DNA of 61,352 nt from Nitrospirota bacterium (lineage in GTDB: Bacteria; Nitrospirota; UBA9217). The stretch covers positions 1 through 61,352 of the forward strand of contig DATIZR010000065.1 of NCBI GenBank assembly GCA_035516965.1, in the 5' to 3' direction. Shown here one piece after another: positions 34,773 through 40,637 of the stretch. How positions within the stretch are numbered: position 1 is the first letter of the stretch; the number at the start of each line of letters is the position of its first letter. Below the pieces are notes generated by a model. That model saw nothing but the letters and a program-made list of their open reading frames with translations, made no database searches and was not told the origin of the DNA. The translations under genes were made by a program, and so were the position numbers.

Positions 34773-35366
34773 TTATCGCGAACGGAGTGCCTTGCGGAAC
34801 ACCTCGAGCGGCTGCGCGCCGACAACTGACTTTTTCTCGTCGATGAAAAAGGCCGGCACCCCGGTCACGCCAAGGCGGGTAGCCTCATCATGTGCCTTCT
34901 GGAGCGTCCGCAGATAGGTCCCGTCTTGAACCGCGTTCTTCATGGCTTCCGGATCAACGCCGGTATCGGCTGCGACGCGCATGAGGACGTCGACGTTCCC
35001 GATGTCGAGACCCTGCGAGAAGTAGGCGGAGAAGAGCGCCTCGTGGAACGGCTGGAACCTGCCCTTGTCGCGAGCAAACTCGGCCGCCATGAGGGCCTTG
35101 CGTGAATTGGACAGGAGAGGGCGGTCCGCAAAGGTGATGCCGAAGGGGGCGCCCATCTGGCGCAGGTGCTTCATCATGCGTTCGATGTCCTCCCGGCGGA
35201 ACCGTGCGGTCATGGGCGTTCCTTCCTGCGGCGTCTCGGGATGGATCTCGACGCCCAGCCACTCGACGGAGAGCTCGAACTCCTGTCTCAGCTTGTCGAC
35301 GAGGCCCTCGCCGATGTAGCAGAAGGGTCAGATGTAGTCGGAAAATATCCTGACGTTGATCGTCAT
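34773..35366 (-). CDS. DsbA/FrnE-family oxidoreductase, probable selenoprotein (Sec13)
   Basis: The frame from the ATG at 35366 to 34773 is open except for one TGA (35328-35330, codon 13) that falls exactly on the first cysteine of the active-site C-P-F-C: FSDYI-TGA-PFCYIG. Reading TGA as selenocysteine gives a 197-residue FrnE-like thioredoxin-fold protein with the helical insertion and a cis-proline loop TGVPAFFID near residue 165. A hairpin directly after the TGA could be the bacterial SECIS. No signal peptide is seen, so it is a cytoplasmic thiol/selenol oxidoreductase. A sequencing error or nonsense mutation is the alternative. Automated pipelines would start at 35213 and lose the active site. 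Confidence 0.82.
35296..35314 (-). promoter_or_regulatory. Candidate bacterial SECIS hairpin
   Basis: Starting 13 nt after the TGA, an 8-bp stem TCGGCGAG / CTCGTCGA (one G-U pair) closes a GGC loop 21 nt downstream of the codon. The distance and a G at the loop start fit the general bacterial SECIS rules; the three-base loop is short. Confidence 0.5.
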
Positions 35367-37571: not shown

Positions 37572-37930
37572 CTGTCGCTCCGAGAAATCAACCAGATAAG
37601 AACAAAAACCTTATCAAGAGGGAAAGAGAGTTTACCGCGAAGCAGCTAAGGACGCAAAGGAATTCTTTAATGGACTGGTCGGGATGGGCTCGATGCCGAG
37701 ATCGGCGGTCGGGCTACGGTACAACCTTCGTTATAGATACTCCTTGGGCAGCTCCTTCTTGTGCCATTTCTCCCCTTTTTTGTGCGGATTTCTTGTCGTT
37801 CTTTCCTGTTTTCCGGAACGAGTGATATACTTTATTGTAAGTAAGAATATTTTTCCCAAACGAGCATGAAGGTGCAGAGCTCTCGCCTTTTTGAGAGCAG
37901 TGGCAGTGACGGAAGAAAGGAGGAATGATC

Positions 37931-38470
37931 ATGAAAGAGGAACTAACGAATAGGAAAGGTTCGATCCTGATACCGGTTCTGACAGGCGGCGCTCTAGGGG
38001 CCGGGATAGCGCTCTTGCTGGCGCCGAAATCGGGAAGCGAGACCAGGAAAGATTTGAAGCGGATCGGCAACCGGCTCTCACAGGCTGTTGATATAGGCAA
38101 GGACCTCTACGGAGAGAGCAGAGAGTTTGTGAGCAAAGCCGTTGAAGCCGGCAAGAAGGCCTATGTGGAGGAAAAGCCCTTGGAGCCCTTGAGCAGCGAG
38201 GGGCGCTCATTCCTCGTGCCGATCCTGGCGAGCAGTATCATCGGGGCAGGCATTGGGGCAGGCATTGCGCTTCTGCTGGCGCCGAAATCGGGAAGCGAGA
38301 CCAGGGAGGACCTGAAGCGGTTCGCATCGCGCACACGGGAGAAGGTTGTTTCCGCCTATGACAAGGGCAAAGATCTCTACGAGACAGGCAAAGGAGCGAT
38401 AACCGAGGCGGTGGAAGCTGGCAAGAAAGTGTACGTCGAAGGGAAGGAGAGGCTTGAGCATGCAGCGTAG
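37931..38470 (+). CDS. YtxH-like protein with two tandem domains
   Basis: The ATG at 37931 has GGAGG seven bases upstream and is preferred to the ATG two codons earlier. The 179-residue protein contains two copies of a YtxH unit: GALGAGIALLLAPKSGSETRKDLKR (about 20-45) and GIGAGIALLLAPKSGSETREDL (about 108-130), each with a glycine-rich hydrophobic helix followed by a long amphipathic helix ending in EAGKKAYVE / EAGKKVYVE. YtxH proteins are usually single-domain and linked to general stress responses; this is an internal duplication. Function is otherwise unknown. Confidence 0.82.
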   Translation: MKEELTNRKGSILIPVLTGGALGAGIALLLAPKSGSETRKDLKRIGNRLSQAVDIGKDLYGESREFVSKAVEAGKKAYVEEKPLEPLSSEGRSFLVPILASSIIGAGIGAGIALLLAPKSGSETREDLKRFASRTREKVVSAYDKGKDLYETGKGAITEAVEAGKKVYVEGKERLEHAA

Positions 38471-39206: not shown

Positions 39207-40637
39207 ATGCCACGGGGAGAAGACAAAAAGGTCCTGTATTGCTGTTTCCTTTTACTGGCGCTGTCCCTTGCCGGCTGCAGCGACCCGAATACGAAGGCTG
39301 TCGTCAATACCGACACGGGCCAACACGCGTCAGGCTGGCTTCCCGCCGGTCACATGACGGCGGCCAGGACCGACGCAGTCGTTTGCGAATCCTGTCACGG
39401 AAGCAACCTGCAGGGAGGCATATCCGGCATCTCCTGCACCTCCTGCCATCTTGGAAGCCCCTCATCGGTCCATCCGGCTGACTGGAATCCCGTGTACAGC
39501 GCTCACGGCCCCTATGTGAAGACAAAAACGACGAGTTCCTGCGCAAACCAGTATTGCCACGGCGCCTCATTGACTGGCGTCCCGGAAAGCGGCCCCTCCT
39601 GCTCGTCCTGTCATATCGGAGGCACCACATCGGAGCATCCGGCAAACTGGGACCCCGTATATAGCGCTCACGGTCCCTATGCAAAGGTAAACGGCACCAC
39701 GACCTGTTCAAGCCAGTATTGCCATGGGCCTTCGCTTGCCGGCGTTCCCGGCAGCGGACCCTCCTGCACTTCCTGCCATTTGGGAGGTGTCACCAGCTTC
39801 CATCCGGCCGAGTGGGCGGGCGACGCTTGCACGAACCACGGGGCGTATGCTTTCGCGAACGGAACTGGCGGCTGCGCGAACGCGGCCTGTCATGGCGCGG
39901 GCCTTCAGGGCGTGCTGAAAAGCGGGCCTTCCTGCACCCAGTGTCATCCGACGATCCCCAATGCATCCAGCTGCAATACCTGCCACGGCATCCCGCCCGA
40001 CGGGGCAGGGACGATCGGTTCCGTGTATCCGAACCTTCCTGGCAGCCACGCGCAGCATATGCAGCTGAGCGGCGTCACGTGCGCCACCTGTCATAACCGG
40101 ACCTGCGATCAGCACATCGACGGCGTGGTCGAGGTCCTCTTCGGCCCTGCATACAACGCGGAAACGGGGCTCGCGTCTCTGGTGACGACGACCGGAGCGG
40201 CATGCTCGAACGTAAGCTGTCACGGCGGGCCGCGGTCCCAGCAGATCCGTACGATACCCGCCCAGGGGATCTATACGCAGGTCACGTCGCAAAGCACATG
40301 GACGTCCGATCCCGCCCAGACCCCCGACTGGTATACAGGAAGCATCAGCCTGAACGACACAAACCAGTGCTTTTCGTGCCACGTGTACGGAGATACGCTG
40401 TACAACGGCTATTTCTCCGGACGGCATTACCTCCATGTCATGGAGCACGGCATCACCTGCATTTCCTGCCATGACACGCTGAAGCTTTCAAATATCTCGT
40501 TCCATTTCCCCGATCTAAGCTCACAGGTGATCTCCACGGCAACGGCGTCTGCGTCCACCAACAGCTGGCTGAACTTCGACGGTACGACCTGCACGTCGCA
40601 GTCCTGTCACTCGGATACGAGAAACTGGTGGCAGTGA
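39207..40637 (+). CDS. Lipoprotein c-type cytochrome with alternating CX4CH and CXXCH haem sites (14 sites)
   Basis: The 476-residue protein has a lipobox (SLAGC, Cys24) and 14 potential haem motifs: nine CXXCH and five CX4CH (CANQYCH, CSSQYCH, CANAACH, CSNVSCH, CTSQSCH). The two types alternate within three repeats of about 55 residues near the N-terminus (HPA.W.P.YSAHGPYVK... C....CHG.SL.GVP.SGPSC.SCH). This is the CxxxxCH/CxxCH domain known mainly from Geobacter relatives. It is probably an outer-surface or periplasmic electron carrier. It stands alone behind its own promoter and long leader and is not part of the conduit operon. Confidence 0.88.
   Translation: MPRGEDKKVLYCCFLLLALSLAGCSDPNTKAVVNTDTGQHASGWLPAGHMTAARTDAVVCESCHGSNLQGGISGISCTSCHLGSPSSVHPADWNPVYSAHGPYVKTKTTSSCANQYCHGASLTGVPESGPSCSSCHIGGTTSEHPANWDPVYSAHGPYAKVNGTTTCSSQYCHGPSLAGVPGSGPSCTSCHLGGVTSFHPAEWAGDACTNHGAYAFANGTGGCANAACHGAGLQGVLKSGPSCTQCHPTIPNASSCNTCHGIPPDGAGTIGSVYPNLPGSHAQHMQLSGVTCATCHNRTCDQHIDGVVEVLFGPAYNAETGLASLVTTTGAACSNVSCHGGPRSQQIRTIPAQGIYTQVTSQSTWTSDPAQTPDWYTGSISLNDTNQCFSCHVYGDTLYNGYFSGRHYLHVMEHGITCISCHDTLKLSNISFHFPDLSSQVISTATASASTNSWLNFDGTTCTSQSCHSDTRNWWQ

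Follow-up and report, generated by a model that had tools for sequence, protein, structure and literature searches.

A predicted selenocysteine at the active site of a FrnE/DsbA-like thiol-disulfide oxidoreductase in a Nitrospirota bacterium

Within the 61,352 nt stretch of Nitrospirota DNA analysed here (the window), the minus-strand frame running from the ATG at 35366 to the TAA at 34775-34773 contains a single internal stop codon, a TGA at codon 13, which lies in the context DYI-U-PFC-YIG when the frame is read through (Table 1). The product of the gene is very probably a cytoplasmic thiol-disulfide oxidoreductase of the FrnE/DsbA-like type whose active site reads Sec-Pro-Phe-Cys, with the UGA decoded as selenocysteine, and this reading is directly supported by the frame, its conservation in relatives, the selenocysteine machinery, the position of a downstream hairpin and the predicted fold. 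An earlier note on this DNA had proposed selenocysteine insertion, and the proposal is upheld by the conserved TGA, by the sel genes of the genome and by the division of relatives into Cys and Sec copies according to the presence of selA.

Table 1. Positions of the selenoprotein gene and its elements (window coordinates) and of the selenocysteine machinery of the same genome (contig:positions)
Feature	Position	Strand	Remarks
Selenoprotein gene	34773..35366	-	Thioredoxin-fold protein of DsbA/FrnE type, 197 aa; TAA stop
ATG start	35364..35366	-	ATG 12 codons upstream of the TGA in 10/10 family orthologs
In-frame TGA, codon 13, predicted selenocysteine	35328..35330	-	Aligned to catalytic Cys22 of Deinococcus radiodurans FrnE (numbering of PMC8945050)
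TGC, Cys16, resolving partner	35319..35321	-	Sole Cys in the protein
Bacterial SECIS-like hairpin	35296..35314	-	8 pairs, loop GGC at 35306-35304
Pro171, GVPAFF loop	34854..34856	-	Invariant in 22/22 aligned proteins
Truncated ORF expected from standard gene calling	34773..35213	-	146 aa; start Met52
selC	C42:279-373		Own genome; ARAGORN: tRNA-SeC, anticodon tca
selB	C42:7085-8971		Own genome
selA	C42:9278-10666		Own genome
selD	C86:4133-5059		Own genome; internal TGA

The TGA at 35330-35328 indeed takes the place of the first Cys of a C-P-F-C motif at codon 13, as the earlier note had described. A single match to the Pfam family DSBA (PF01323) covers residues 5-194 of the read-through product (E 4e-36, 125 bits against a cut-off of 25.6), so that the sequences before and after the TGA are of the same family, again in agreement with that note. 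The UxxC motif, present as UPFC, and the PF01323 match above the gathering score place the protein in the DsbA-like UxxC family. U13 and C16 are the only residues of their kind in all ten family orthologs, and since no further Cys is available, a thiol-type enzyme would have to use the Sec/Cys pair as its redox centre. The invariant Pro171 is presumably the cis-proline of thioredoxin folds. No NCBIfam equivalog scored above cut-off for the protein, and the Rcas_1661 selenolipoprotein family was rejected as an assignment (NCBIfam model score 45.6 versus a cut-off of 190). For this gene the ORF list contains just the 146 aa ORF from 35213, which confirmed the expectation that standard gene calling would start there and lose the active site.

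The predicted structure, in which Cys was modelled in place of Sec, has a mean pLDDT of 95.1, and its best matches in the PDB are five entries of Deinococcus radiodurans FrnE (5co3, 5coh, 5cnw, 5xwh and 5cp1; TM-score by query 0.86-0.92). The closest solved structures are thus FrnE, which points to membership of the FrnE subfamily. Residues 3-9 already form the first strand of the predicted structure and leave no room for a signal peptide, suggesting a cytoplasmic location.

Conservation of the TGA was followed in a set of 14 genomes of the same family, the window's own genome included. An ortholog was found in 10/14, each with exactly one TGA, always at codon 13 and always followed by P-F/Y-C; the other nine orthologs are 54-70% identical to the protein studied here. 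The four family genomes in which no ortholog was found (G004, G007, G011 and G012) include three with selA, and the gene is therefore dispensable. Comparison of the own gene with its family orthologs gave dN values of 0.13-0.29 before and 0.19-0.39 after the TGA, with a dS of 1.03-1.91 after it, and codons 14-51 alone gave a dN of 0.12-0.20 versus a dS of 0.35-0.90. Purifying selection thus acts on both sides of the TGA, and retention of the codon in 10/10 orthologs while downstream dS is about 1 to 1.9 is more than chance conservation.

A wider search of the phylum gave matches at E 1e-15 or better in 110 of 395 genomes, with a TGA in 16 of these. Six of the TGA copies lie outside the family (L140-L144 and L150) and likewise carry the TGA at UP[FW]C; in one of them (L144, genome G208) N bases directly before the TGA hide the start of the copy. 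The nine Cys rows that were examined have CPFC or CPWC at the active site, and conservation of an in-frame UGA at a position occupied by Cys in homologs is the pattern of bacterial selenoproteins. All 80 relatives derived from contigs have CPFC, which is uninformative on the frequency of Sec because the retrieval patterns included DYICPFCY. One further FrnE-like match (G192:C49:6316-6915) contains one internal TAG and is possibly a pseudogene.

The genome was searched for selA, selB, selC and selD, as the earlier note had advised, and all four are present; their absence, which that note had given as a refutation, is thereby excluded. Its selD has an internal TGA of its own in the context SSCAG-U-ASK, which we take to be the catalytic position, and its two full-length formate dehydrogenase matches (C9 and C27) contain one TGA each. 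Outside the window, one TGA was also seen in each of two other formate dehydrogenase-like matches, at G000:C42:40906-41679 and C23:37328-37771, indicating that this genome encodes more selenoproteins than those considered here. A second selA-selB pair (L157) lies outside the window on a 4.9 kb contig (G000:C71:1919-4887), its SelA and SelB being 79% and 84% identical to those of the C42 pair; either a second copy or the contig of a related organism binned with this genome (contamination 2.95%) could account for it.

Across the 19 genomes searched, selB scored above cut-off in 11, selA in 11, selD in 12 and tRNA-Sec in 13. The corresponding counts for the ten gene-bearing family genomes were nine, eight, eight and ten; G005 (74% complete) gave no selA, selB or selD above cut-off, G008 has selA as a fragment only, and G013 (74% complete) gave no selD above cut-off. 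The five Cys genomes in this set had none above cut-off in any of the four machinery searches (0/5 each). Among 14 further genomes, which formed another set, selA was found in 6/6 with TGA copies and 0/8 with Cys copies, and tRNA-Sec above cut-off in 4/6 and 0/8, respectively; the two TGA genomes in which tRNA-Sec was not found (G218 and G312) do have selA. Both sets together have selA above cut-off in 14/16 TGA genomes and 0/13 of the Cys genomes tested, and whether relatives carry Cys or Sec at this position, which the earlier note had suggested checking, therefore goes in step with the presence of selA. A separate observation concerns G004, a family genome that is 96% complete and has tRNA-Sec and a TGA-containing selD, with no selA or selB above cut-off and no FrnE-like gene, which could reflect either missing contigs or a loss in progress.

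The hairpin downstream of the TGA has exactly the form that had been claimed for it, with eight pairs, a GGC loop and an onset 13 nt past the TGA. All ten orthologs share invariant outer stem arms (TCGGC and GTCGA) and a G-rich loop, and have a hairpin directly downstream of the UGA with a small apical loop containing G; in selD and fdhA of the family, too, the hairpin loop is G-rich and lies at a similar distance. Bacterial SECIS elements are described as a stem-loop that follows the UGA directly on its 3′ side (PMC9312934) and as having a small apical loop containing guanosine (PMC1088965). The eight-pair stem has 91.7% paired cells in nine distinct sequences, more than any slid version of it, and five of its pairs are invariant. 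One pair changes on both sides, from G-C to A-U, in 3/9 distinct sequences, so that covariation support is limited to one pair in a mostly invariant stem. An Rfam scan of the window returned two tRNAs only, and no SECIS match.

Observed folding energies were compared with 500 synonymous recodings per sequence. The energy was matched or beaten by 15 recodings for the own gene and by 123, 126, 28, 10, 148, 9, 215, 69 and 132 for the other family members, and by 14, 438, 152, 283, 341 and 156 for the six other TGA relatives, of which four (L141-L144) have a minimum-energy fold of the 46 nt segment that differs from the expected stem. Hairpin energy alone is weak and mixed evidence, and does not exclude chance. 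Synonymous conservation was taken as the better test: the same-codon fraction is 0.797 in codons 14-28 versus 0.535 from codon 29 to the end, and only 4/182 windows of codons reach the former value, all of them starting at codons 14-17. Such conservation directly after the TGA would be expected of an RNA element lying within the reading frame, and selection on the protein alone would not readily account for conserved third positions.

The distribution of Sec and Cys was mapped on a 56-row tree (16 Sec and 40 Cys; 27 of the 80 contig-derived relatives and 29 genome-search matches), on which the Sec label needs four changes, at least three of them forced by the starred branches. Grouping all Sec relatives into a single clade was rejected (p-AU 4e-6) in a test on 54 rows with 14 Sec, from which L150 (long branch) and L144 (masked bases) were left out, whereas a clade of the family plus f11/f26 was not rejected (p 0.069); L140 is placed among Cys proteins of other phyla. 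The changes on the tree and the rejection of a single Sec clade point to at least two Cys/Sec switches, in either direction. On balance, we favour the view that the active-site Cys of FrnE became Sec, or the reverse, at least twice in one phylum, and that a downstream hairpin was accommodated in the coding sequence on each occasion. Such switches agree with the conversions between Cys and Sec, in both directions, that PMC1794560 discusses for bacterial selenoproteins, and would make this small family a natural test set for the gain or loss of a Sec codon together with its SECIS.

A glycogen phosphorylase gene is the neighbour in only 3/10 genomes, the own genome included, and operon context gives no functional hint. 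Elsewhere in the window, a 476 aa ORF at 39207-40637 (+) has many CxxCH motifs and is a probable multihaem cytochrome, and a 181 aa ORF at 37925-38470 (+) has an internal duplication around LLAPKSGSETR.

As the window comes from a single draft assembly of 120 contigs, and TGA and TGC differ by one base, the TGA might be an error for a true TGC, but the same codon is TGA in nine other family genomes and the same motif position is TGA in six more genomes of the phylum, which disposes of the read error at 35328-35330 that the earlier note had named as a refutation and leaves it a negligible probability. It is also extremely unlikely that the gene is a pseudogene, or a truncated gene translated from the internal start of the 146 aa ORF without the active site: codons 14-51 are under purifying selection, the U13/C16 pair is retained in 10/10 orthologs, and Met52 is Met in only 4/10.

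UGA encodes Trp or Gly in some lineages, and Cys could enter at UGA under selenium starvation, so that reassignment or read-through as another amino acid, such as Trp or Cys and with no selenium, has to be considered. We regard it as very unlikely, since TGA terminates 16 of the 30 window ORFs that do not overlap and are at least 250 aa long, and the code is thus not reassigned, selA, selB, selD and tRNA-Sec are all present, and relatives have the catalytic Cys at the same position. The UGA might also act mainly as a selenium-dependent switch, with partial, regulatory recoding and a 12-residue leader ending at low selenium; termination just 12 codons past the start would waste little, but there is no sign of a regulated downstream product and the neighbours are not conserved, making such a switch improbable.

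If, as we prefer, UGA is recoded as selenocysteine, translation would start at 35366, and at codon 13 SelB carrying Sec-tRNA-Sec would bind the downstream hairpin, allowing selenocysteine to enter instead of termination. Sec13 would then be the attacking nucleophile and Cys16 would resolve the mixed selenosulfide, the enzyme cycling between a reduced Sec/Cys pair and an Se-S bond, perhaps with a higher reactivity as an oxidoreductase, as the earlier note had supposed. By analogy with Deinococcus FrnE, the most likely role would be that of a cytoplasmic disulfide reductase or isomerase fed by thioredoxin or thioredoxin reductase; selenium insertion, catalytic direction, electron donor and cellular location are here what we infer from the features described above.

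The enzyme type itself is already known: publications have described DsbA-like UxxC selenoproteins of COG2761, which we take to be the FrnE group, since 2005. The present analysis adds a Sec clade in a Nitrospirae-like lineage, together with the at least two separate Cys/Sec switches proposed for the phylum; the titles and abstracts within the partial coverage of our literature search describe no FrnE selenoprotein in this lineage. Misannotation as a 146 aa protein without the active site would hide a selenium-dependent redox enzyme in this lineage, and the relatives, 16 with Sec and many with Cys, divided according to the presence of selA, provide material on the benefit of Sec to FrnE and on Cys/Sec switching. 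The overall picture of selenoprotein biology is unchanged.

Compared with known systems, the protein has the same fold as D. radiodurans FrnE (5cnw, 5co3 and 5cp1; sequence match 1.2e-23), whose C22-P-W-C25 aligns with U13-P-F-C16 and which has Cys, not Sec, at the active site. In vitro, the Deinococcus enzyme acts as an isomerase and reduces insulin, and its C-terminal CXXXXC serves in regeneration (PMC8945050). This tail, which many FrnE proteins have, is missing from the protein described here, but the same source reports that some FrnE proteins lack it, and it is thus not strictly required. SCO1869 of Streptomyces coelicolor (3gl5), a putative DsbA oxidoreductase, is related in fold and sequence (26% identical in the structural alignment), and its PDB listing does not call it a selenoprotein. 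DsbA-like UxxC selenoproteins were reported from the Sargasso Sea in 2005 (nine sequences, COG2761; PMC1088965), as DsbA 1 of pfam01323 (63 sequences; PMC2398784), as a DsbA-like protein in 41 organisms (PMC5029168), with PF01323 and UxxC in the reviews PMC9312934 and PMC13188914, and as two selenoproteins in Asgard archaea (PMC11227280). Passages from this literature name Anaeromyxobacter, Desulfovibrio, Desulfotomaculum and Asgard archaea as sources, and not the present lineage, and the features they give for the family, namely PF01323, UxxC, widespread Cys homologs and a SECIS whose small apical loop contains a G, are shared by the gene described here.
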